From an uncultured Desulfobulbaceae bacterium (GTDB lineage Bacteria; Desulfobacterota; Desulfobulbia; Desulfobulbales; CALZHT01): a stretch of 64,000 nucleotides of DNA. Under the pieces are notes generated by a model. The model was given only the letters and a program-made list of their open reading frames with translations. It was not told the DNA's origin and did not search any database. The first letter of the stretch is position 1. Each line of letters begins with the position of its first letter. The translations under genes and the position numbers were made by a program. Shown here piece by piece: positions 31,512-44,048 of this stretch. The DNA is taken from NCBI GenBank assembly GCA_945787445.1, contig CALZHT010000012.1, positions 1 to 64,000 of the forward strand, read 5' to 3'.

Positions 31512-32012
31512 ATGAATAAAGCTGTCCGTGGTCTGTTCGTTGTTTTTTTTGTCTCCTCTGTTCTCTTATCTGTAAATCCTTGCAAATCTGATCCGCAGGA
31601 AACTGTAAAATCGGACACGCGCTGTCCGGTCTGTGGTATGTTTGTAGCAAAATTTCCTTCCTGGATCACCCAAATCCGTCATACTGATGGGACGGTCAGT
31701 TATTTTGACGGCATGAAGGACATGATGGCCTACTACTATAATCCGGAAAAATTTAGCAAACAGCATAAAGATTTCATAATAGAAATTTGGGTAAAAGATT
31801 ATTATTCACTGGCCTGGCTTGAGGCCCACAAGGCTTTTTATGTTTCAGGCAGCGATATTTACGGACCCATGGGCCATGAATTAATACCGTTTGCATCCAA
31901 AGAGGCGGCTCAAAGCTTTAAAAATGACCATGCCGGCAAAAAAGTATTTTCTTTTAAAGAAATTCCTCCAGAAGTAATTGAAAGACTCCGTTCCGGACGT
32001 ACCATGAAGTGA
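31512..32012 (+). CDS. nosL: NosL family protein
   Basis: The 166-residue protein has a signal peptide (KAVRGLFVVFFVSSVLLSVNP). The copper-binding motif is TRCPVCGMFVAKFPSWITQI. The remaining NosL pattern is SYFDGMKDMMAYYY, VKDYYSLAWLEAHKAFYV and MGHELIPFASKEAAQSF. NosL delivers Cu(I) to nitrous oxide reductase in denitrifiers. Here no nosZ, nosD or nosR is present in the window, and the gene heads an ABC-transporter cluster, so another metal-dependent target is likely. Confidence 0.85.
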   Translation: MNKAVRGLFVVFFVSSVLLSVNPCKSDPQETVKSDTRCPVCGMFVAKFPSWITQIRHTDGTVSYFDGMKDMMAYYYNPEKFSKQHKDFIIEIWVKDYYSLAWLEAHKAFYVSGSDIYGPMGHELIPFASKEAAQSFKNDHAGKKVFSFKEIPPEVIERLRSGRTMK

Positions 32013-32025
32013 CAGACATTAAAAA

Positions 32026-32307
32026 ATGAGACCGGTACATCTTCTTCTTGCTATTGTTTTTGTGCTATTTGTTGCAGATACTGCTTTATTCTTTCATGCC
32101 AGAATCCAACGCCACCAATTTTATGCCAATAAAAAAATACTAGACATTACTACTGCCGGTCTTGGCTTGACAGACTTGTGTGTCTCTACTGAAGCGCGAT
32201 ATACCCGCCATCCGGCTGTAAGTGACAAAATTGTGCCGTTTATGGATCACCCCGGAGCCATAGAACATTTCCCGACAGGTTCTTTCTGGGCCCCGGCCTT
32301 CCCATAA
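32026..32307 (+). CDS. Small membrane-anchored protein of the NosL-ABC cluster
   Basis: The 93-residue protein starts 13 bp after nosL. An N-terminal membrane segment (RPVHLLLAIVFVLFVADTALFF) is followed by a hydrophilic, His-containing tail: TDLCVSTEARYTRHPAVSDKIVPFMDHPGAIEHFPTGSF (in parts). No known family is recognised. The rigid-looking, proline/histidine-rich tail and position make it a candidate metal-handling or docking subunit. Confidence 0.6.
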   Translation: MRPVHLLLAIVFVLFVADTALFFHARIQRHQFYANKKILDITTAGLGLTDLCVSTEARYTRHPAVSDKIVPFMDHPGAIEHFPTGSFWAPAFP

Positions 32308-32395
32308 TATTTCAACAAATACCGTGAATGTGGGGCGAAGCGAAGATGAAAACCAGCTATTTCAGGAGGTACCGGTTGCATCAGAGTTATAGATT

Positions 32396-33589
32396 ATGCT
32401 GAAAACAGTTTTTGAAAAACACCTCAACATTTTAGATTACTCCCTTTCCTCGCTGTGGCGTCGCAGATTAAAAAATGCCAGTGTCCTGCTGGTTTTTGCC
32501 GGGGTAATTTTTCTGCTGGCATCATTTCAAATGGTAACCCAGGCCTTGACCCAGCTTGCCAAAGATTCTCTAGAAAACACCCCTGAAATCACAATACAGC
32601 GAATGTCAGCCGGTCGGCAGGAAGCAATACCGCTGGCCTATATGGATGAACTGTCCACCATCTTCGGCATCCAGAAAGTAGTGCCGAGGATTTGGGGATA
32701 TTACTTTGATGAGGCAAATCTCGCTAATTACACGGTAATGGGGCTTGATGTTTCCGCCATGCCATTTGGCAAGAAACTTAACCTGGCATTGCGCGAAGGA
32801 CGCTTTCCGGAAAGGGAAGGGACGGGGGAGTCCGTTATCGGTCAATCGGTTTATACAGCAAAAGATTTGAAAAATAGGCGGGTTATCTCCTTTTTCCGGC
32901 CTGACCTCTCATTGAAATCCTTTAAAGTTGTCGGTATATTCAGCAGCATTGTCGACCTGCTGACTAGTGATCTGATTGTGATGAATATCGAAGATGCGCG
33001 GGATCTTTTTGCCATAGCGCCAGGATTTGTTACAGACTTATGTGTATATGTAGCCAATCCAATGGAAGTTGACACCATCGCCAAAAAAATTGCTGACCGT
33101 CTTTCGGATACCAGAGTGCTTACCAGGTCCCAGATTATGAAGACGTATCAAGTTGTTTTCGGCTGGCGTAGCGGTTTTGCCTCAGTCTGTCTTTTGACGG
33201 CCCTTGCCGCTTTTATTATCCTGGCATGGGACAAGGCTTCCGGGCTTTCACCCGAGGAGCGCCGGGAAATAAGTATACTGAAAATATTAGGATGGGAGAC
33301 GACAGATGTTTTGGCGGTCCGCTTTTGGGAAAGCTTTTTAGTGGCTGCCCTGGCTTTTGTGATCGGCTGTACCTTTGCTTATATTCATGTTGCTTTTTTT
33401 GATGCCACCCTCTTCAGACCGGTTCTTTTGGGATGGTCGGTGATTTATCCGTCCTTCCAGCTCATTCCCAATATATCCGTCGATGATTTGCTTCTTATTT
33501 TTTGTTTTACCGTTATCCCGTATTTGGCTGCCACTGTAATTCCGGCATGGCGTTGTGCCATTGTTCCGGCGGATTCTGCTATACGGTAA
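32396..33589 (+). CDS. ABC transporter permease (FtsX/MacB/LolC-like)
   Basis: The 397-residue protein has an N-terminal TM (NASVLLVFAGVIFLLASFQMV), a large extracytoplasmic MacB-type domain (residues ~50-250) and three C-terminal TMs. The FtsX signature EERREISILKILGWETTDVLAVRFWESFLVAALAF (in parts) is present. The start ATG 32396 has no good RBS close by; an AGGAGGT lies 25 nt upstream. It couples ATP hydrolysis by the next gene product to work on a periplasmic or membrane substrate. Confidence 0.8.
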   Translation: MLKTVFEKHLNILDYSLSSLWRRRLKNASVLLVFAGVIFLLASFQMVTQALTQLAKDSLENTPEITIQRMSAGRQEAIPLAYMDELSTIFGIQKVVPRIWGYYFDEANLANYTVMGLDVSAMPFGKKLNLALREGRFPEREGTGESVIGQSVYTAKDLKNRRVISFFRPDLSLKSFKVVGIFSSIVDLLTSDLIVMNIEDARDLFAIAPGFVTDLCVYVANPMEVDTIAKKIADRLSDTRVLTRSQIMKTYQVVFGWRSGFASVCLLTALAAFIILAWDKASGLSPEERREISILKILGWETTDVLAVRFWESFLVAALAFVIGCTFAYIHVAFFDATLFRPVLLGWSVIYPSFQLIPNISVDDLLLIFCFTVIPYLAATVIPAWRCAIVPADSAIR

Positions 33590-33612
33590 TGAAGGCGGGG
33601 TAGGGGACGATA

Positions 33613-34290
33613 ATGCTGATCGAACTGGAATCGGTTACTAAAATATATAATAAGGGAAGACCAAACGAAGTAAAGGCCCTCACCGGAGTAAGCCTCACCA
33701 TAGAACCTCAAACCATGGTATGCCTCAAAGGGGCAAGCGGTTCAGGCAAAAGTACTTTACTTTCCATTGTCGGTTGCGTATTCCCACCAACCAGCGGCAG
33801 GGCCTCCATAGCCGGAAAGCAGCTATCCAGGCTGCCGGACCGATTCCTTACCATCCATCGCAGGGAGACGATCGGCTTTATATTTCAACAATTCAATATT
33901 CTTCCCGGATTGACTGTGATGGATAATATTACCTTGCCGCTTCTTCCTCTTGGTGTATCACCCCGGGAGCGGAGAAAAAAAGCACGGATTCTTACCGAGC
34001 AACTTTCCATTACGCACCGTGAAAATTTTCTTGCCAATCAGATATCAGGAGGGGAGCTGCAGAGGGTGGCCATTGCCAGGGCGCTTATCAATAATCCTCC
34101 CATTATTCTGGCAGACGAACCCACCGCCCATCTGGACAGCAGGCTCAGCATGGAATTTATGAGTATAATGAACGACCTCAGGTTGGCCGGCAAAACAATT
34201 ATAATTGCTTCTCACGATACCCTGGTAACAGATCATCCTCAAGTGCATCATATTGTCGGGGTGAAGGACGGACGAATTCATGTTCCTTAA
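33613..34290 (+). CDS. ABC transporter ATP-binding protein (MacB/LolD-like)
   Basis: The 225-residue protein has Walker A (GASGSGKST), Q-loop (IFQQFNILPGLTV), signature (ISGGELQRVAIARAL), Walker B (IILADEPTAHLD) and H-loop (IIIASHDTLV), all intact. Its small size is typical of FtsE/LolD-type ATPases. It overlaps the next membrane gene by 11 bp and is 23 bp from the permease, so it is the energising subunit of this system. Confidence 0.9.
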   Translation: MLIELESVTKIYNKGRPNEVKALTGVSLTIEPQTMVCLKGASGSGKSTLLSIVGCVFPPTSGRASIAGKQLSRLPDRFLTIHRRETIGFIFQQFNILPGLTVMDNITLPLLPLGVSPRERRKKARILTEQLSITHRENFLANQISGGELQRVAIARALINNPPIILADEPTAHLDSRLSMEFMSIMNDLRLAGKTIIIASHDTLVTDHPQVHHIVGVKDGRIHVP

Positions 34291-35290
34291 TTCATGGAGC
34301 CTGACCCTTTGCTTGTGCAGTCTTGTGGTCTTCTTTTTACTGGCTTTTGCCAGCCGAACAGCAGTAAGAGTGCTCCGTTTCTGGAATCCTGCCAGCGACA
34401 GCAACCGGCAAATCCGTCTTGAAAATGAAATATGGCTCTCATCAACCATGGTGGCATATGGTCTGGGCTTCCAGATTGTCTCCCTGCTTTTGTTCGTGCT
34501 TGCCGCGAACCATTATTGCCAGATGATTGTCGGGGCAATGTGTGCCACCGGTGCTTTAACGGCGAACAGTTTTGGCGTGCCGGCCCTGATGGTCAAGGTT
34601 GCCGGTGTCTTTTTATACGGATTCTGGATTGTGATGCATCAACTGGATATAAGGTCGGAAAGATATCCTCTGGTCCGGGTAAAATATATCTTCCTGCTGT
34701 TGTTGTTACCCCTGCTTTTCGTAGACATATCTTTGCAAACCCTTTATATTTCTGGGCTTAAGCCGGACATTATCACTTCATGCTGTGCAGTGGTGTTCAG
34801 TTCTTCAAGCGGGACAGGCAGTCAGAGTTTTTTGGCCAATGTATCCCAGCAGACCCTATTGGTCCTATTTTACTCGGGTATTGCAGCTCTTTTTACTTGT
34901 GGCATTTTGCTCTTACGGTATAAACATGCCCTGCTTGCCGGTTTGTATTCACTGCTGTGGATGGTATTTTTCGGCGTTGCCATCGTCACTATTATTGCCG
35001 CTCTCTCTTCATATATTTATGCCATGCCGTATCATAACTGTCCCTTCTGTATTTTTAAGACGCAATACTATTACATAGGTTTTGCAATTTTCGGTACCCT
35101 GATCCCTGCTGTTTTTTTGGGGATAAGTTTGAGTTTGGTCCAACTTTTTTTGGGTAAAAGTGATCTGGTTTTTTATATACGGAAATTCCAAACCTATGCT
35201 GTATGTTTTTCATTACTGTTTTTAACTGTTTTTGCTTTTCTGTCCTCATATCATTATATTGTGTATAAAATAATGGGCGGAGAAGTTTGA
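34280..35290 (+). CDS. Polytopic membrane protein of the NosL-ABC cluster
   Basis: The 336-residue protein has about nine hydrophobic segments. Cysteines occur in or near the membrane or loops (NHYCQMIVGAMCATGALTANSFGVP, TSCCAVVFSSSS, YHNCPFCIFK). The CPFC motif in YHNCPFCIFKTQYYYIGF is a likely metal or thiol site. The short charged loops include QLDIRSERYPLVRVKY. I do not recognise the family. By position it is the second membrane subunit of the ABC system and may receive or export metal or a thiol compound. Confidence 0.65.
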   Translation: MFLNSWSLTLCLCSLVVFFLLAFASRTAVRVLRFWNPASDSNRQIRLENEIWLSSTMVAYGLGFQIVSLLLFVLAANHYCQMIVGAMCATGALTANSFGVPALMVKVAGVFLYGFWIVMHQLDIRSERYPLVRVKYIFLLLLLPLLFVDISLQTLYISGLKPDIITSCCAVVFSSSSGTGSQSFLANVSQQTLLVLFYSGIAALFTCGILLLRYKHALLAGLYSLLWMVFFGVAIVTIIAALSSYIYAMPYHNCPFCIFKTQYYYIGFAIFGTLIPAVFLGISLSLVQLFLGKSDLVFYIRKFQTYAVCFSLLFLTVFAFLSSYHYIVYKIMGGEV

Positions 35291-35621: not shown

Positions 35622-36545
35622 ATGATACATAAAAAAATGAGCATTTTTGCCGGCATTTCTGCTCTTAAATTTGTAATTGTTAATTGCAGCAATTTTTTAT
35701 TTTGTATTTCCTTGTTTGTTGTTTTCATGGTTTTAACAGGATGCGGCACAACGCAAGTTCAGGCACCAGACGTTGAACCGCTGGCAGTTGATATAATGGA
35801 GCCCCCACCTCCCCCACCCCTAAAGCCAGAGGCTATTCACTATAAGGATATCGTTCACAGGCTCAAAAAAAAGGGCAATCGGCGGGGAGTGGATTTCTAT
35901 CAAAATGATACCGGTAACTACGTGCTGTATGCCATTGAGAGTAAGGAAAAATTCACCTTTGCCGATAAAACTGGCACCTGTCTCTATAATGCGGAAATAT
36001 CAAAAAACGTTGAAAATGCGCTCACTAATACAAAGAATTATGATGTTACTTTAGCATCAGGAATATGTGGAATCAAATATCCAGACGCATCGCCTGATGT
36101 CTTGCTGTTAATAGACGCCATGGCAAGGGATCTGCTAGGATCTCTCATGAGCAGGCTTGATGGCGGCCCTTGGATGTGGAAATGCTCTGATGAAAGCTTC
36201 CTCAAACAGACCGTGCTGTATCAGTTTCCTTTTGAAGTGTTGGATGGTTCCGAAGATCTAGAAAAGTCGATTTCCCGAATCAGCAGAAAAATTCATGACC
36301 CGCTTGATATCGCCTTTGGCGATGTTGTTTTCTATAGATCTCAGGAAAACCAGACTAAAGTAGGTGTTTATGCAGGCTACGGACTTATTGTTTCTAATCA
36401 AGACTGTCAACATGCGGGCCTGCACCGTTTGACAGGTGAAAATAATTATCGAATTTACCGGATCCTCATGGGATATGCTTGGACCCGGTATCAAGCCAAC
36501 GACCCGCTATTCCTTAAGAAATACGTAGCAGACAGCCCTCAATGA
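35622..36545 (+). CDS. Lipoprotein with degenerate NlpC/P60-like C-terminus; first gene of TolQR-like operon
   Basis: The 307-residue protein has lipobox VLTGC with Cys at residue 41, followed by a polyproline run (EPPPPPPLKPE, residues ~60-70). The middle domain (residues ~75-180) is unknown. The C-terminal segment IAFGDVVFYRSQENQTKVGVYAGYGLIV has the GD-V-F...VG-Y-G-G pattern of NlpC/P60 or CHAP folds, but the catalytic His position is replaced (KVGVYAG) and no catalytic Cys is clear. It is therefore likely a binding domain, perhaps for peptidoglycan. Its stop overlaps the next start (ATGA). Confidence 0.6.
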   Translation: MIHKKMSIFAGISALKFVIVNCSNFLFCISLFVVFMVLTGCGTTQVQAPDVEPLAVDIMEPPPPPPLKPEAIHYKDIVHRLKKKGNRRGVDFYQNDTGNYVLYAIESKEKFTFADKTGTCLYNAEISKNVENALTNTKNYDVTLASGICGIKYPDASPDVLLLIDAMARDLLGSLMSRLDGGPWMWKCSDESFLKQTVLYQFPFEVLDGSEDLEKSISRISRKIHDPLDIAFGDVVFYRSQENQTKVGVYAGYGLIVSNQDCQHAGLHRLTGENNYRIYRILMGYAWTRYQANDPLFLKKYVADSPQ

Positions 36546-37783
36546 ACAGCAGATCCGCTGACCAATCAGAAGCAACAAAAAATATTTTCCCGTCGGTACC
36601 TGATCTTACAGATGAGGATTCAACGGATATTTTCTTTTCCTTTGATGTAACCGCCTGGGCATTTTTATGGGAGCATAAACACCAAGGCGTTAATGGCATA
36701 ACGTCTCTTACCAGGCTGGAACCCAAGAAGAAAGAAAATGATTTTGAAAAAATCGGCGTAGTGGTCTTATACTTTCTACGGGATTTCTTTTGTAATCCAA
36801 CGAGTTACGGCTACATACTTCTTTTTCTCCTTATCGCTATTCTGGCTTTGAATCCGGCAAGTATCCAGGAAAAAGTTCGAGAAACCATGACCATTATGCT
36901 TGCTCCGGAAGTCGATGTGCCGAAACCGAAACCCGCACCTCCACCTCCGCCACCCAAACCAATCAAGAAAGAGAAAATTGCGAAGCCGAAACCTGTAAAA
37001 AAAGAACTGCCTAAACCCAAACCTCCGAAACAGAGAAAAATAAAGGAAGAGCAGGTTAAATTGAAACTGCAGCAGCCAAAAGCATTAAAGAAAGAAGCGC
37101 CAAAAACAAAGCCGATTGCCAAGAAGAGGCTTATGGCAAAGCCGATGGATGAGAAGAAACTCGGAATGCTGGGGAGCAAAGCGGATCGCAAGGCAGAGGA
37201 TTTTCGTTTGGATAATCTTTCAACTACACGCCGGGTCGACGAAGCAGCTCAAGGTTTCAAAGTCAGGGCGCGCAGCTCTTCAGACGCACCGGCAGACCTT
37301 CCCACCTCCTTTGCTGTGACCTCACCCCAAAGAAAACTGGAAGAAGAAAATGTCACGACCTCCCTATCATCAATAGGAAAAAAAGAACGGCGCCTTGAAG
37401 ATGATACGGAGAAGTTAAAAATCGAAACAGCTAAAAGAACGGATGTTGAGCTTGAAAACACTGCCCTTGAGGTAGGAGTTGGCCGTAGAGGCGAGAGCGA
37501 TATTGAAAACGTTGATTTGAATATTCAGGTAGCGCAAAGAGATGAACCTGTTGAATCAGCTCCTGATGCATTGTCTCTTCCAGAAGCATCTAAATCTGAT
37601 GATCTCCGCTATGATGAAGAATATAAAGGTGTATGGCAAAAACTCGAAAACATTGGGCCGGTGGCACATTTAAATGCCAAGTGTTTTGGCATATCTGACA
37701 ATAGGATTGTCAGATACAGACAGTACAAATTCAGGTGTGCAAAAAACCAAATTCGTGAAGCTTGGAAGCAGGTACAGAAATGA
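36542..37783 (+). CDS. TonB/TolA-like spanning protein with proline/lysine-rich periplasmic arm
   Basis: The 413-residue protein has a cytoplasmic N-terminus of ~85 residues and one TM (YGYILLFLLIAILALNP, residues 90-105). A Pro/Lys-rich arm follows at residues ~126-200 (PKPKPAPPPPPPKP, KPKPVKKELPKPKPPKQ). The C-terminal part is charged and helical, ending in VAHLNAKCFGISDNRIVRYR. The arm is the hallmark of TonB/TolA proteins, which carry ExbBD/TolQR energy across the periplasm. No typical TonB C-terminal beta domain is visible. The long cytoplasmic N-terminus is unusual for TonB. ATGA overlaps occur at both ends. I infer it is the force-transmitting subunit. Confidence 0.6.
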   Translation: MNSRSADQSEATKNIFPSVPDLTDEDSTDIFFSFDVTAWAFLWEHKHQGVNGITSLTRLEPKKKENDFEKIGVVVLYFLRDFFCNPTSYGYILLFLLIAILALNPASIQEKVRETMTIMLAPEVDVPKPKPAPPPPPPKPIKKEKIAKPKPVKKELPKPKPPKQRKIKEEQVKLKLQQPKALKKEAPKTKPIAKKRLMAKPMDEKKLGMLGSKADRKAEDFRLDNLSTTRRVDEAAQGFKVRARSSSDAPADLPTSFAVTSPQRKLEEENVTTSLSSIGKKERRLEDDTEKLKIETAKRTDVELENTALEVGVGRRGESDIENVDLNIQVAQRDEPVESAPDALSLPEASKSDDLRYDEEYKGVWQKLENIGPVAHLNAKCFGISDNRIVRYRQYKFRCAKNQIREAWKQVQK

Positions 37784-39366
37784 CTATGACAAAGCCAAGA
37801 ATGATGGGAAAGCATTTAGCCAATTTCATGGTATGTAAATTTCGACCACTGATAATTACATCAGGATGGATTATTGCCATTTTGGTCATGACAAATTCAT
37901 CGTATGCCCTGGAAGTCCAGAAGTTTCGTGACATGTATGGAGCTGAGGATTATGAAGAGCTTGTCATCCTCTGCACCGATATGAGGACGGAAATAGAAGC
38001 GGATGAATATGTGGACCGACTTCTTTATTATTGCGGCCAAGCAAAGTTCATGATTTTTCAGAAAGGTGGACCTGAAACTTTTGTGGGCGAAGGCGGTCCG
38101 GAAAAATTCCTTGAAGACGCCATTGATGATCTCGAACGATCAACGTATTCCTACTACCTTCCCTCCACTGTCTTTGCTCTTGGTAAAGCCCGTATGCTTT
38201 CCATCTCCAAAGAAATGGAACCCCGGGAATCTCTTTCCATCCAACGCCGCGCCTTGGGAGAAATGTGGGATGCCATCCAGAAAAAACATGCCCAGGAGGA
38301 TTTTAACGCAGAGTTGCTTTCAGATCAGATTCTGGGATGGACCATTGAATATTATAAGGCACTTATTGATGGTCTGATAAAGGATGATAATCTTACAAGC
38401 GGATGGTTAACCGCCCGAATCCGCATGATTTGTGACCGATACACAGATATTAAACCCAAAAAAGCCAAAGATCAAACCCGGAAAGGGAACTTGGAAACAG
38501 TTACTGGTTGGATGCATGATCTGTATGAATCGACCTATTTTGACGGAAATTCCGTGATAGGTATTTACAAGTTTATGGGGGACCGATCCAAGGAAGAGTA
38601 TGATCAAACTGAAACTACGGAACCGAAATTTATTGAGGCCCTGGAACACTATAAAAAAGGACTGTCCATGGCAGGGTCACTCAAGGCTAAAGCCGTGCTC
38701 ATGGAAAAAATTAGCGACCTTACCCAATGGATAATAACCGAAGAGAAGGAAAAGAAAATCAATTACTACATGTTGGGATTCCAGCATGCCAGAGACGCTT
38801 ATAAACTTTTAGCATCCGAGCAGAATGAATCCAAAATGGCCTATCACTTTGAGCCTGATACCAAATCCCTTATAGGACTGGTGGAGAAAGATTACGGCCA
38901 GAACCTCTCAGGACTATTATACTTTCTCTGGGAAAAAGAGAATTATAAAGGTGTCGTTGCTCTCCGCAACGCATTTCAAATAGATTTTGACTGGAAAACC
39001 AAGCTGCATGACATGCTTCGTGTTTCTGATGCAGCGGCAAAACTCGCCCGCGCAGTTTATGAACTCCCTAAAAATCAGCGTAATCTCTTTGTTTTCCAGA
39101 ACTACCAAGGTATTTGTCTAACCTATGCCTCGCACGCTTTCAATTATGTCCTGAAGAAATATGAACAAGACAGCAAAACTCATCAGGAAGATTTTTGCAC
39201 CACCCTTGATGCCTACACCGCTTTCCTCGTAGGGTTTGGCGAAATTGCCGAAAATCGTCAAATGACCAATCTCTATGAACCGCGCTGTAAAGATAAGAGT
39301 ACAGCGAAAAAGAAGAAGAAAGCAGTAAAAAAGGGAACGAAACTAGCAAAAGGGGGGGAAAAATAA
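37780..39366 (+). CDS. Exported helical-repeat protein of the TolQR-like operon
   Basis: The protein has 528 residues from ATG 37780, which overlaps the previous stop (ATGA); the longer TTG start at 37762 is less likely. An N-terminal hydrophobic signal (PLIITSGWIIAILVMTNSSYALEV) leads to a mostly alpha-helical TPR/Sel1-like array (DDLERSTYSYYLPSTVFALGKA, IEALEHYKKGLSMAG). The C-terminus is a lysine-rich tail (STAKKKKKAVKKGTKLAKG). The family is not recognised. It is probably periplasmic, a scaffold for protein or glycan contacts. It is joined to the next gene by a TAATG overlap. Confidence 0.6.
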   Translation: MTMTKPRMMGKHLANFMVCKFRPLIITSGWIIAILVMTNSSYALEVQKFRDMYGAEDYEELVILCTDMRTEIEADEYVDRLLYYCGQAKFMIFQKGGPETFVGEGGPEKFLEDAIDDLERSTYSYYLPSTVFALGKARMLSISKEMEPRESLSIQRRALGEMWDAIQKKHAQEDFNAELLSDQILGWTIEYYKALIDGLIKDDNLTSGWLTARIRMICDRYTDIKPKKAKDQTRKGNLETVTGWMHDLYESTYFDGNSVIGIYKFMGDRSKEEYDQTETTEPKFIEALEHYKKGLSMAGSLKAKAVLMEKISDLTQWIITEEKEKKINYYMLGFQHARDAYKLLASEQNESKMAYHFEPDTKSLIGLVEKDYGQNLSGLLYFLWEKENYKGVVALRNAFQIDFDWKTKLHDMLRVSDAAAKLARAVYELPKNQRNLFVFQNYQGICLTYASHAFNYVLKKYEQDSKTHQEDFCTTLDAYTAFLVGFGEIAENRQMTNLYEPRCKDKSTAKKKKKAVKKGTKLAKGGEK

Positions 39367-40358
39367 TGAGATTGATGGCTAATCATATGAAAAAATATGT
39401 ATTGTTCTTCAGCATGGTTGGTTTTGTTGTTTTTACCAACGGTTCCGTCTCAGCCCAACTCGGGTCCTATAAGGGCGAATCACTCCTTCTGCAGAAAAAA
39501 ATCCAATTGGCTCTACATGACATGGAACGCCTTGTCGAAGAAATACGGCGAATCGATGAGCCCTGGTCTAAAAGACTTTTACTCGAAGAGGTTGAAACAA
39601 TCCTCTATAAAGAAGTGGAATTTCCCCTCTCTGTTCAAGGTGGCGGCATAAGTAAACAGAATGTTGACAATGTCGCCGAGTTGCTTGGCATAGAGCAACG
39701 TCTGCTGTCAGAACTTTTCGCCAGAGCTTTTGCGCTGGTCGGTATTGCCAAGGCATATGAAGGATTCGTTGCCGCAGGCGAAGATTTTCTTGTAATTGCC
39801 CAGGAAATTTTTCCTGATACGCCGTCATTAACTATGAAAATTGATAGTTTTGAAAGTGCCAAGACTGTGAGGGAATGGATGTCTGATGCGTCCAGGATTG
39901 AAGGGGGTAGCCTGCCGGTCAGGATTTCATTTAAAGGGAAAACACTTCCATCTTCAGAGGTTGTGGAGAACCTCAATCACGCAACCGTCCGTTTTATTAC
40001 TGAACAACCAGATCAAGATATGGACTATGTTCTTTATGTTGCCGCCCATGATTTTATCAAAGGTGTGCTCCGTAAAGCCACATTGGCAGATATTTTGACA
40101 GACCAAGATTCTCGTTGGTTTACTATTTATCTGCCACCGGGAAAATACCAGTTGGTGATTAATCTTTTAGAGAAATTCACTAGCAATATCGTTGCCCACC
40201 CCGATCCAAACAGCAATGAACATCTCATTGAGGGTTTGTCGCAGGGAATTACTGTGTATCCATCTCCCTCAATCAAGAATAATCCTCAGAGAAGCAGCCG
40301 TCCGGGAAAAAAAAATAACATGGGTCAAAAACCTACTACTTCAAGCATCAAGGAGTGA
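39366..40358 (+). CDS. Exported protein of unknown family in the TolQR-like operon
   Basis: The 330-residue protein has a signal peptide (MKKYVLFFSMVGFVVFTNGSVSAQ). It has a helical N-terminal half (LLLQKKIQLALHDMERLVEEIRRI, GIEQRLLSELFARAFALVG) and a beta-sandwich-like C-terminal half (VRFITEQPDQDMDYVLYVAAHDF, DSRWFTIYLPPGKYQLVINLLEKF). The tail (SSRPGKKNNMGQKP) is basic. The start ATG overlaps the previous stop as TAATG. An internal ATG at 39372 or 39387 may be the signal-peptide start. Function is unassigned. Confidence 0.55.
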   Translation: MRLMANHMKKYVLFFSMVGFVVFTNGSVSAQLGSYKGESLLLQKKIQLALHDMERLVEEIRRIDEPWSKRLLLEEVETILYKEVEFPLSVQGGGISKQNVDNVAELLGIEQRLLSELFARAFALVGIAKAYEGFVAAGEDFLVIAQEIFPDTPSLTMKIDSFESAKTVREWMSDASRIEGGSLPVRISFKGKTLPSSEVVENLNHATVRFITEQPDQDMDYVLYVAAHDFIKGVLRKATLADILTDQDSRWFTIYLPPGKYQLVINLLEKFTSNIVAHPDPNSNEHLIEGLSQGITVYPSPSIKNNPQRSSRPGKKNNMGQKPTTSSIKE

Positions 40359-40385
40359 AGCTGGGTCCAAGTTTAGGAGGAATAC

Positions 40386-41165
40386 ATGCAAGAAAACAAT
40401 CTGATAACCAGTAAATTTAGACAGTTAAACGTCTGGGTGGTTATTGTAATCACCGCCGGCCTCACTGGCCTGAGTATATACAAGCCAAATATTCTAGACT
40501 CCCAGAATTTGGCGACATTTATTGTGCCGACCATTCATAAAATGAGCCTTCTTACCATGTTCATCCTCTATGCCATGGCCATAATCCTGGTAGTCAACTG
40601 GGTCTATTACAGCGTATTCAAGCTCACGCGAACCAAATACTACGATCCCGTACAGAGAACAGATCTGATCCGCATTCTTAAAGATCCAAGTGTTCATGGA
40701 GATTATGAGGTATTTCAAAAGAAAACTGTTCGTTTGGTGATGAATTACTCAAATTATTTAAGTGAAATCATCGGTGCTATCCTGCCCAATGCCATCAAAC
40801 AACCATTCATGCTTGAACAGTATTTCAGGGCAAAAGTGGATAACATCAACGAAAAATACATTGAAGGTATTAATACCATCAACCTGTTTTCCAACATTGC
40901 GCCGGTGGTAGGTTTTTTTGGCACTCTTCTGGGCCTTATCCAAGCATTCAGGGCATCTTCAAACGCAATGCTGGCCGAAGGACAGATGACCCCTGAAAGT
41001 TTTGCAACGCTTCAAGCTTCGATAATGATCGCAATCATTACCAGTCTTTTTGGGGTCAGCCTCAAGATAGTCGGGTCTATAATGCGTCATCATCTAGTAG
41101 CGCAGATCCCCATTGAGGTCTTATATAGGGATTTCGGCCGTCGCCAAAGCGATGCTGTTGAGTGA
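40386..41165 (+). CDS. MotA/TolQ/ExbB family proton channel protein
   Basis: The 259-residue protein starts at ATG 40386 behind AGGAGG. TMs lie at residues ~15-35 and ~55-78 (MSLLTMFILYAMAIILVVNWVYYSV), with two more in the family core (INLFSNIAPVVGFFGTLLGLIQAF and LQASIMIAIITSLFGVSLKIV). APVVGFFGTLLGLIQAF is the MotA_ExbB signature. It lacks MotA length or charge pattern, so it is closest to TolQ/ExbB. With the next protein it should form a proton-driven channel that energises the TonB-like arm. Confidence 0.82.
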   Translation: MQENNLITSKFRQLNVWVVIVITAGLTGLSIYKPNILDSQNLATFIVPTIHKMSLLTMFILYAMAIILVVNWVYYSVFKLTRTKYYDPVQRTDLIRILKDPSVHGDYEVFQKKTVRLVMNYSNYLSEIIGAILPNAIKQPFMLEQYFRAKVDNINEKYIEGINTINLFSNIAPVVGFFGTLLGLIQAFRASSNAMLAEGQMTPESFATLQASIMIAIITSLFGVSLKIVGSIMRHHLVAQIPIEVLYRDFGRRQSDAVE

Positions 41166-41199
41166 TTTTCTTTCCTTCAAAGTATAAAGGAAAAATGAT

Positions 41200-41769
41200 A
41201 TGAAACGACTGGTTGAAGACGAAGATCTCAATTTACAGGACTTGATATTCATTCTACTTTTTTTCTTTGTTATCTCGCAAACACTCATTGTTTTCAAAGT
41301 TCAGAAGGATGTAATCGTACCTCCCAAGGTTGATAAAAATCCCGAACTTGTGGTGAACGAGAACAAGAGGGAACTGATCACCTTGGTGATCGATGAAAAG
41401 TCCGGGGTTTCAATATTAGCAGGCGAGGTAAAGAAAACAGTTCTCCAGGGCTTGGATCCTGCGGCCATGGGAATCACCTATGAGGAGTACCTTGATCCTG
41501 AAAAGAGCAAGGATCTTTTCCTGCCAACAGAGGATGCAACGGCATACAAAAATATTATTGGAGCAATCAAGGAATTTAAGAAATCAAATCGTTTCAAAAA
41601 ACCACGGATTGGTCTTGTTGCAGACCACAGAGCGCGATATGGTACTATTTTTCAGGTTAATATCGCGGTGCAGGAACTCATTAAGGAGGAGATAATTGAT
41701 CCGTCGGTGAAATGGAAAGTTTATGTGGACAAACGTTCTGAAACAAAAAAGACTCTAGGTTTTGAATAA
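41200..41769 (+). CDS. ExbD/TolR-like proton channel partner
   Basis: The 189-residue protein has one N-terminal TM (DLIFILLFFFVISQTLIVF, residues 14-32) preceded by acidic residues. Asp14, at the start of this segment (NLQDLIFILLFFF), aligns with the essential Asp of ExbD/TolR. The periplasmic domain has GEVKKTVLQGLDPA and ...RARYGTIFQVNIAVQELIKEE, which is somewhat like TolR. It follows the channel gene by 34 bp and ends the operon at a family A repeat and terminator. Confidence 0.75.
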   Translation: MKRLVEDEDLNLQDLIFILLFFFVISQTLIVFKVQKDVIVPPKVDKNPELVVNENKRELITLVIDEKSGVSILAGEVKKTVLQGLDPAAMGITYEEYLDPEKSKDLFLPTEDATAYKNIIGAIKEFKKSNRFKKPRIGLVADHRARYGTIFQVNIAVQELIKEEIIDPSVKWKVYVDKRSETKKTLGFE

Positions 41770-41874: not shown

Positions 41875-41906
41875 TAAGTAAGTATTTTACTGTTTCGAAT
41901 TAAAGA

Positions 41907-41939
41907 GGGGGGCAGGAAACAACCTGGCCCCTTTTTTTT
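41907..41939 (+). terminator. Rho-independent terminator of the TolQR-like operon
   Basis: GGGGGGCAGG, a 6-nt loop, CCTGGCCCC, then eight T residues. The stem has one bulge. It follows the family A copy and should end transcription of the six-gene operon. It may also help separate it from the convergent regA gene. Confidence 0.85.
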
Positions 41940-41956: not shown

Positions 41957-42490
41957 TTATTTGTTGGGAGCATACTTATACAGCTTCCTTTGCAATGTTC
42001 TTCTGTGGATACCGAGTTTTTTTGCCGCCGCTGATATGTTACCTTTACAGTCGCTCAACACCCGATTTATATGCTCCCATTCGGCCCTGGCAAGAGATGG
42101 CGGCGTGAATTCATCCTGTTCAACAGATGTTTCATGATCTTGATTATTGGAAAACGCTTTCAGGATATCATCAACATCAGCAGGTTTTGGGAGATAGTAA
42201 AGGGCACCAAGTTTTATTGCCTCGGTAGCAGTGGCAATACTTCCGTAACCTGTTAAAACGACGATCTGCATATCCGGAAAGATGGCCAGTCCATCCTTAA
42301 TGATATCAAGCCCTGATTTTCCGGGCATTTTCAAATCTACAACCGCTCGTGCCGGTTTTTTTTTGATGATTACCTGCAGAGCTTCTTCATAGTTTTCCGC
42401 TGAATGGACAATAAATCCCCTGTCAGCAAAGGCCTTGCTCAGCCTTTCCCTAAAATAATCTTCGTCATCTACGAGAAGAATGGTATGCAT
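41957..42490 (-). CDS. regA: RegA/ActR/PrrA-type response regulator
   Basis: The protein has 177 residues from ATG 42490, which follows GGGGGAGTTG; the longer frame to 42655 is not homologous-looking. The receiver domain has ILLVDDEDYFRERL, the phospho-acceptor Asp in ARAVVDLKMPGKSG, VLTGYGSIATATEA and the Lys in YYLPKPAD. A linker with proline (TPPSLARAEWEHINRVL) leads to a Fis-type helix-turn-helix (CKGNISAAAKKLGIHRRTLQRKLYK). This is the standard RegA arrangement. It regulates redox-dependent genes together with RegB, which is encoded upstream in the same direction. Confidence 0.88.
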   Translation of the reverse strand: MHTILLVDDEDYFRERLSKAFADRGFIVHSAENYEEALQVIIKKKPARAVVDLKMPGKSGLDIIKDGLAIFPDMQIVVLTGYGSIATATEAIKLGALYYLPKPADVDDILKAFSNNQDHETSVEQDEFTPPSLARAEWEHINRVLSDCKGNISAAAKKLGIHRRTLQRKLYKYAPNK

Positions 42491-42680
42491 CAACTCCCCC
42501 ATAAACATAATAAATGCATTGAAGCTCCCCACTTTAGCAGGGAAGCTCCCTAGAATTTTTTTCTTTCGTTCGTTATGCCCTTTACAGTGCTGAACTTTGC
42601 TGGCTTGCCGCTCCGCCGCCACACGTAACAGGGATCGTTTTACTCCGACACGCAACGGGAAATCTACCTACCATGCCTCC

Positions 42681-44048
42681 TCATTCCGCCGTTATGTGGG
42701 AAAGTGAAAAACGTACTCCAACAATTGTGCCTTGTGCCGGAACCGAATGTATAGTTACTCCCCCTCCGAAACGTTCTGCAATGGATTTTGCTAAAAAAAG
42801 TCCCAATCCCAGGCCTTTGCCGGGATCTTTTGTAGTGAAAAAAGGTTCTGTGGCCCTGGCAAGAGTGTCTTTATGCATTCCGGCCCCTTTATCTTCAACC
42901 TCAATTACAAGAAAACCATGCTCTGTTTTGCAACGCAGAAAAATTGGCGAATCATCTTGCGTAGCATCGAAGCCGTTTTTTACAATTCCCTTTATAGCTC
43001 TTTTGATGGTGCGGTGCGGGAATCGAACAAAAAGATCACCAACTTCGTTTGTGGTCTCAATGCGATCTCGATATCCCGATGGAAAGGTGTGTTCGATTTC
43101 TGCCAGAAAATCTTTGATATTTCTTTCTTCACTAAGTTCACCCAGTGGTTCTCCGGCATCGGCCGCCAATTGATAGAGTATATCCTTGCATCTATTAACC
43201 TGCTCTCTTATGAGTTGAGCATCCTCTGTGAGTTCCTGGCTTGCCCCATTTTTTTTGAGCGCACGAATCATTTCTCCAGAAGCAACCGCTATGGTAGACA
43301 GTGGGGTTGAGAATTCATGAGCAGCCCCTGCGGAAAAAGTTGCAAGCGCTGCAAGTTTTTCAGTCTTAAGCCTTTCGTCTTTCAGGATTGCCAACGTTTC
43401 CTGATGTTTGTCCAATGCTTTTTGGATTTTTCCGACAAAAAACACAATAAAAAAGGCGGTAATTGAGAAAGCTACCCACATGCCCTGCAGGTGCATGGTA
43501 AGTTCGTCGCTTTGCATCGGAACGGACGAGGGAAAAGAGTAATGGCACAACTCTTGGATTTCATGAGTTACGCCGAGTGAGGAATCAAGAAATACCATTA
43601 TATCGGGGAAATAAAAAAAACTAGCATAACAAAAGATGGTGAAAAATGTTAAACTCCACGACCACCTAGTGGGAGTCAGGATCGCTCCTAGGGCTATGTG
43701 GATAAGATAAAGAAAGGTGAAAGGATTCATCGGGCCGCCGGTCTGCGACAACAAAAGCGTCAGCAGACTCACATCCAAAAACATGACCAGGGCGGTCAGC
43801 CAACCGGGGATTATAAGTTTTTTTCGCGTCCAGACATGGAAAAAAATGTTGCTTGCTGCAGCAAAGGCAATAATTGCAAATAAGATGAAAAATGGAAGCT
43901 TTGTGTCAAAAAAAAGATACACAGCCAGAATGAGTATGATTTGACAGGCCAGCGCACCCCATCTGAGATACAACAGCCAAGAAAAAGCAATTCTGGATGT
44001 TGCCCTTTCTGTTTCTGAAACGGATATGGTTTGCGTATTTGATGTCAC
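42681..44048 (-). CDS. regB: RegB/PrrB-type redox sensor histidine kinase
   Basis: The 455-residue protein has an N-terminal domain of about six TMs with TGGPMNPF (residues 103-110). This is the GGxxNPF motif that binds ubiquinone in RegB. The cytoplasmic H-box is GAAHEFSTPLSTIAVAS (His244), and the redox-sensing cysteine lies in VNRCKDIL (Cys287), matching the RegB redox box. The ATPase domain has NGFDA, DKGAGM and GKGLGLGLFLAKSIAERFGG. All known sensing features are kept. It responds to quinone pool redox state and phosphorylates RegA; in anaerobes the quinone would be menaquinone. Confidence 0.88.
   Translation of the reverse strand: MTSNTQTISVSETERATSRIAFSWLLYLRWGALACQIILILAVYLFFDTKLPFFILFAIIAFAAASNIFFHVWTRKKLIIPGWLTALVMFLDVSLLTLLLSQTGGPMNPFTFLYLIHIALGAILTPTRWSWSLTFFTIFCYASFFYFPDIMVFLDSSLGVTHEIQELCHYSFPSSVPMQSDELTMHLQGMWVAFSITAFFIVFFVGKIQKALDKHQETLAILKDERLKTEKLAALATFSAGAAHEFSTPLSTIAVASGEMIRALKKNGASQELTEDAQLIREQVNRCKDILYQLAADAGEPLGELSEERNIKDFLAEIEHTFPSGYRDRIETTNEVGDLFVRFPHRTIKRAIKGIVKNGFDATQDDSPIFLRCKTEHGFLVIEVEDKGAGMHKDTLARATEPFFTTKDPGKGLGLGLFLAKSIAERFGGGVTIHSVPAQGTIVGVRFSLSHITAE

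Follow-up and report, generated by a model that had tools for sequence, protein, structure and literature searches.

Six genes in the window, that is, the whole 64,000-nt stretch of DNA analysed here, combine an ExbB-like and an ExbD-like protein with four proteins of no assigned family. This locus raises the question of whether the pair powers one of the known Ton, Tol, Glt or Gld machines or is fitted to a different load. The 5:2 motors have been classed as generic ion transporters, and a recent survey reports ExbBD-like proteins without known function (PMC12505986). In the open-access literature, no description of an operon like the present one was found; one may exist elsewhere.

Organization of the six-gene operon

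According to the ORF listing, all six genes are co-directional on the + strand and span 35622-41769 (Table 1). The first four genes meet at the junctions TCAATGAAC, GAAATGACT and AAAATAATGAG, and gaps of 27 nt and 34 nt separate gene 4 from gene 5 and gene 5 from gene 6, respectively, matching the overlaps and short gaps noted in a preliminary description of this DNA. Hydropathy profiles showed a single N-terminal segment in each of proteins 1, 3 and 4 and one N-terminal transmembrane segment (TM) in the ExbD-like protein (gene 6); for the ExbB-like protein (gene 5) they gave four or five hydrophobic segments. In gene 2, one TM is preceded by 89 residues, close to the cytoplasmic N-terminus of about 85 residues estimated earlier. 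ORFs, hydropathy and Pfam together agree with the makeup first described, namely a lipoprotein, a one-TM protein with a Pro/Lys arm, two exported proteins, and an ExbB-like and an ExbD-like protein. The terminator proposed to close the set stood in part: a hairpin with a U tract (z -2.9) is present, but the strict consensus terminator scan did not list it. Neither the consensus terminator scan nor the promoter scan gave an excess over shuffles.

On the 5' side of the operon (31512-35290) lie a NosL-like protein (by eye), a LolC/MacB-type permease, an ABC ATPase and a membrane protein without an assigned family. These genes were rejected as operon members, being absent beside the operon in other genomes. 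On the other side, a response regulator and a sensor histidine kinase, a RegA/RegB-type pair by eye, are convergent with the operon (41957-44048, minus strand).

Table 1. Features of the six-gene operon; positions refer to the window
Feature	Position	Strand	Basis or remark
Gene 1, exported lipoprotein, 307 aa	35622..36545	+	Lipobox LTGC at Cys41; 4 further Cys conserved in 3 orthologs
NlpC/P60-like block of gene 1, residues 229-261, DIAFGDVVFY...VGVYAGYG	36306..36404	+	Sub-cut-off Pfam matches
Gene 2, envelope-spanning protein, 413 aa	36542..37783	+	89 cytoplasmic residues, then one TM, a Pro/Lys arm and a C-terminal tip carrying two Cys
Cytoplasmic block of gene 2, residues 22-44, LxDExSxDIFFSFDxTxxAxLxE	36605..36673	+	Pattern residues identical in 3 orthologs
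Single TM of gene 2, residues 90-108	36809..36865	+	No His in 3/3 orthologs
C-terminal tip of gene 2, residues 370-411, NxGPxAHLNAxCxG...RCxxNQIxExW	37649..37774	+	Two conserved Cys
Gene 3, exported all-alpha TPR-like solenoid protein, 528 aa	37780..39366	+	5 conserved Cys past the signal sequence
Gene 4, exported protein without family match, 330 aa	39366..40358	+	Hydropathy, family scans
Gene 5, ExbB/TolQ/MotA-family pore subunit, 259 aa	40386..41165	+	Pfam PF01618, 2.3e-11
Gene 6, ExbD/TolR-family axle subunit, 189 aa	41200..41769	+	Pfam PF02472, 2.4e-07
Asp14 codon of gene 6	41239..41241	+	Counterpart, by alignment, of the Asp that carries protons in ExbD/TolR
Terminator-like hairpin with U tract	41902-41937	+	G+C stem, -24.6 kcal/mol, z -2.9

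The motor pair, the spanning protein and their partners

Gene 5 matched the Pfam family MotA_ExbB with 44.0 bits (cut-off 22.9, E 2.3e-11) and gene 6 matched ExbD with 31.3 bits (cut-off 25.4, E 2.4e-07); the copies of both genes in SZUA-242, a second genome carrying the set (see below), were also above the Pfam cut-offs. Thr180 of gene 5, which aligns with the corresponding TolQ/ExbB residue, is invariant in the family alignment, and Thr219/Ser220 align at the second polar site. Judged by sequence, genes 5 and 6 are true members of the MotA_ExbB and ExbD/TolR families. The equivalog models for TolQ, ExbB, PomA, MotA and TolR scored far below their own cut-offs on these genes, indicating that they are not TolQ, ExbB, PomA, MotA or TolR proper.

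The pair has PF01618, PF02472 and the channel Asp and Thr in common with the ExbB-ExbD/TolQ-TolR 5:2 motors, but differs from them in an extra N-terminal hydrophobic segment of gene 5, a longer insert in the periplasmic domain of gene 6, and a separate and long gene 5 clade. In a maximum-likelihood tree of 21 sequences, the three operon ExbB-like proteins formed one clade (100/100) on a stem of 3.2 changes per site, apart from the TolQ, ExbB, Glt-type and MotA proteins of the same genomes; some deep forks of this tree are open, so no sister group was assigned.

Including that of the operon, the host genome encodes five MotA_ExbB proteins. Its TolQ belongs to a TolQ-TolR-TolA-TolB-CpoB-like run on contig C79, its ExbB accompanies ExbD and TonB in a canonical set outside the operon, and its MotA is paired with MotB. 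The fifth is the ExbB of a locus (L018 11031-18005, contig 33 of the host assembly G000) that resembles the Glt core (PMC3169522), with two ExbD proteins, a GltG-like protein bearing FHA and a TonB tail, an outer-membrane barrel and a TPR protein. The operon is a locus distinct from the Tol, Ton and Glt-like ones that this genome carries. Neither TolB nor Pal was found among the six operon products by Pfam; as had been claimed, no TolB is encoded nearby, the TolB-like gene instead following TolQRA on contig C79. Likewise, no TonB-dependent receptor was found on the contig of the operon, and the sole match in the genome is on contig C93. This single receptor barrel match (G000 contig 93, 1111-2154) compares with seven in G007, a related genome.

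Gene 2 contains one TM followed by a Pro-rich periplasmic arm, as in the TonB/TolA force transducers. The TM position and both conserved blocks (Table 1) are common to three orthologs, and the NP..YGY stretch leading into the TM and the Pro/Lys arm are also conserved. Pfam found neither TonB_C nor FHA in any of the three orthologs, which bears out the earlier remark that the spanning protein has no visible TonB domain, and hhalign gave less than 1% probability for gene 2 against the TonB and TolA of the host. TonB and TolA dock on their motors through an SHLS box (PMC12204202). This box is not present in the TM of gene 2, nor is there a His in the TM of any ortholog; because the SHLS His is missing, docking of gene 2 may differ or may not occur. 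Matches to cytochrome b562 in a PDB sequence search fall on the TM/arm region and were dismissed.

The lipobox of gene 1 reads LTGC at Cys41 in the window, and SAGC and LAGC in the relatives. All three orthologs scored under the NlpC/P60 Pfam cut-off of 23 (15.7, 16.6 and 14.0 bits; E 0.015, 0.0079 and 0.049), and hhalign of gene 1 against three real NlpC/P60 proteins of relatives reached 91% probability over 32 columns. Compared with NlpC/P60 lipoproteins (MepS/Spr, CwlO), gene 1 weakly matches the GDVVFF...VGIY block, but across the three orthologs K, V or Q replaces the canonical His of HVGIY. Because of this replacement, catalysis of the usual type is unlikely, and the fragment is probably a non-catalytic binding module. 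Cys188, conserved as CS/CT, and the invariant His268 may nevertheless allow some catalysis. The AlphaFold model of gene 1 has a pLDDT of 41.

The model of gene 3 is an all-alpha solenoid of mid confidence (pLDDT 63), for which a fold search returned generic TPR/solenoid matches with low TM-scores and no specific relative. Gene 4 is exported and carries a conserved C-terminal YLPxGxY segment. Searches of genes 1-4 against Pfam, NCBIfam, PHROGs and PADLOC gave nothing above cut-off, and PDB sequence searches gave low-complexity or weak matches only. Profile searches had been named as a check in the preliminary description; those made here, hhalign to proteins of the host's own loci included, matched the four unassigned proteins to no characterised TolQR/Glt system.

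Conservation and distribution

In G007, which represents another genus of the same family, the six genes occur in identical order (L011 6668-12936), with a Sel1-type gene on one side and an MTHFR-type gene on the other (both names by eye). In SZUA-242, a MAG labelled 'Nitrospirae', the set is split over two contigs, with genes 1-4 on one, and genes 5-6 together with the end of gene 4 on the other. The two contig ends overlap inside gene 4 with an 84-base exact match, and the gene 4 ORF translations agree across about 100 residues, with two differences. A gene-neighbourhood survey had been proposed earlier, with the prospect that the arrangement might be conserved nowhere else; the survey found the same six-gene order in both of these genomes. 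This recurrence places the gene order above chance. Moreover, the flanks are unlike in all three genomes, which delimits the unit to the six genes.

Between the window and G007, 59-66% of third codon positions are changed, against far lower fractions of first and second positions in every gene, a substitution pattern that indicates selection on the proteins. Protein identity between the two is 76% for ExbB and 69% for ExbD. The ExbB identity of 67% to the SZUA-242 copy, versus 76% within the family, together with the patchy presence of the operon, suggests lateral transfer.

No further copies were found among 258 genomes of the host's class, in a 395-genome sample of its phylum, in a 296-genome sample of the phylum of SZUA-242, or among 231 genomes of the class of SZUA-242 (searched with gene 3). 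A scan of 84,980 GTDB genomes with two strict peptide patterns, by which diverged copies may be missed, returned SZUA-242 alone, and viral contigs and plasmid collections yielded no relative. In all, the operon was found in three genomes, two of them in one family. It is rare and not a widespread Desulfobacterota system. Additionally, gene 3 in the class of SZUA-242 and gene 5 in the class of the window were seen only in genomes with the whole set.

Several other motor genes were encountered during these searches. A weak ExbB match in G021 was rejected as an operon copy, being an ordinary ExbBD in another context, and MotA-type matches in G007 and G020 were rejected as operon motors, being MotAB pairs. 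L039 (G007) and L032 (G020) each encode a second MotA and a MotB-like protein with a long N-terminal extension, distinct from the usual flagellar stator type. In SZUA-242, CxxCH-rich genes resembling multihaem cytochromes c lie on both sides of the operon (L014 3227-5638 and L016 10193-11002). Divergent from the operon in the same genome (L016 5187-10036, contig 172) are genes for a FliG-domain protein, MotA, two MotB/OmpA-like proteins and a TPR protein. The FliG-domain protein has an N-terminal hydrophobic segment followed by the FliG middle and C-terminal domains and is the only FliG_C match of the genome, so this locus may encode a non-flagellar FliG-MotAB motor.

A candidate force machine and its alternatives

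The motor of the operon belongs to the known 5:2 kind, and the set fails the tested defining features of the Ton/Tol arms and of the Glt core. On balance, we regard it as rather likely that the products of all six genes make up a single proton-driven machine that exerts force across the envelope and whose arm pulls on a complex at the outer-membrane side. Gene 5, as the wheel, and gene 6, as the axle, would constitute an inner-membrane motor of ExbB/ExbD type, on which the single TM of gene 2 would dock. The cytoplasmic block of gene 2 may couple to the motor or regulate it, and the Pro/Lys arm would cross the periplasm to end in the tip with the Cys pair. This tip would pull on a complex in which the lipoprotein (gene 1) is joined by the solenoid (gene 3) and the product of gene 4. 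For this scheme we infer motor stoichiometry, proton use, the contacts of arm with motor and of tip with lipoprotein, the outer-membrane location of the lipoprotein, the direction of force and the cargo.

A proton-driven machine had already been proposed in the preliminary description. The motor of ExbBD/TolQR kind, the spanning arm, the lipoprotein and the periplasmic partners do recur as a conserved unit, but the link to peptidoglycan that was part of the proposal is suggested by the NlpC/P60-like fragment, which is below the cut-off. The absence of TonB_C, the absence of a nearby receptor and the single receptor match in the genome make an uptake role less likely, and a mechanical role would be the better reading. 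A lipoprotein with a wall-enzyme-like and probably inactive domain would speak, if thinly, for a machine that moves the wall or outer membrane or changes its shape.

Several known systems share parts with the operon. The six-gene TonB2/TonB3 systems of Vibrio, comprising TtpB, TtpC, ExbB, ExbD, TonB and the TPR protein TtpD (PMC6957404), raise the possibility of a specialised Ton-type uptake system, with gene 2 as a highly diverged TonB opening a receptor encoded elsewhere. ExbB, ExbD, a Pro/Lys arm and a TPR-like protein do stand together in one operon, as in TonB2 (PMC6957404), and TonB-dependent receptors occur in both relatives, with one match in the host. However, TonB_C is missing from 3/3 orthologs, profile comparison did not match gene 2 to the TonB of the host, the contig lacks a receptor, and the host has a canonical ExbBD-TonB with only one receptor match. 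Moreover, the operon differs from TonB2/TonB3 in having one ExbB-type protein (no TtpC), a lipoprotein and a cytoplasmic block, and no lipoprotein of the gene 1 kind is described for the TonB2 operon; we therefore judge Ton-type uptake unlikely. Tol-Pal has a motor, an arm, a lipoprotein and periplasmic solenoid parts in common with the operon, but TolB, Pal and the TolA domain are missing from it, and the host's TolQRA-TolB is elsewhere.

The Agl-Glt core (AglRQS, GltG, GltC/D/E; PMC3169522) is likewise patchy across phyla and likewise built from a motor, an arm with a cytoplasmic N-terminus and solenoids. The operon could be a diverged core of this type that serves gliding or the transport of adhesins, gene 2 taking the part of GltG and gene 3 that of GltD/E. 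The two sets agree in a single TM preceded by a cytoplasmic N-terminus, in an arm rich in Pro and in having TPR partners, and Glt core sets move between phyla (PMC3169522). GltG, however, bears FHA and TonB domains and works beside two TolR-like subunits, whereas gene 2 has neither domain and the operon has one ExbD. Considering also that the host already has a Glt-like locus, that profile comparison with the GltG-like and TPR proteins of this locus detected no similarity and that the gene 5 branch is separate from the Glt-type ExbB, this identity appears quite improbable. About equally improbable is a drive for secretion or surface export analogous to GldKLMN (type IX), in which the motor would turn a lipoprotein/periplasmic ring and energise an outer-membrane translocon encoded elsewhere. 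The logic of the parts is the same, an outer-membrane lipoprotein, a periplasmic protein and a 5:2 motor (PMC8986121), but the likeness is one of analogy: family scans found no match to Gld/Por proteins, no nearby translocon was found, and the operon has a separate spanning arm in place of the large GldM axle. Finally, genes 1-4 and genes 5-6 might be mere neighbours without a shared machine. In the window and in G007, genes 4, 5 and 6 are set apart by gaps of 27 to 200 nt, which would allow this, and nothing direct speaks for it; the identical order in three genomes despite different flanks, and the finding of genes 3 and 5 only in whole-set genomes of the classes searched with them, make it very improbable.

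If the six genes form one force machine, it might constitute a further class beside Tol, Ton, Glt and Gld. An arm that docks differently, has a conserved block for control in the cytoplasm and bears Cys in a tip of a new kind would drive a pseudo-peptidase lipoprotein of the outer membrane and a periplasmic solenoid, and the wall or the outer membrane would be remodelled or moved as a result; we hold this extended proposal to be possible, with the balance somewhat against it. Among the families of proton-driven envelope machines, few have been tied to a function. The DIFFSFD block, conserved on the cytoplasmic side, hints that control may act directly from the cell interior, and since the set is compact and complete, with an arm and a candidate outer-membrane partner of its own, it could show how a shared motor is fitted to a new load.
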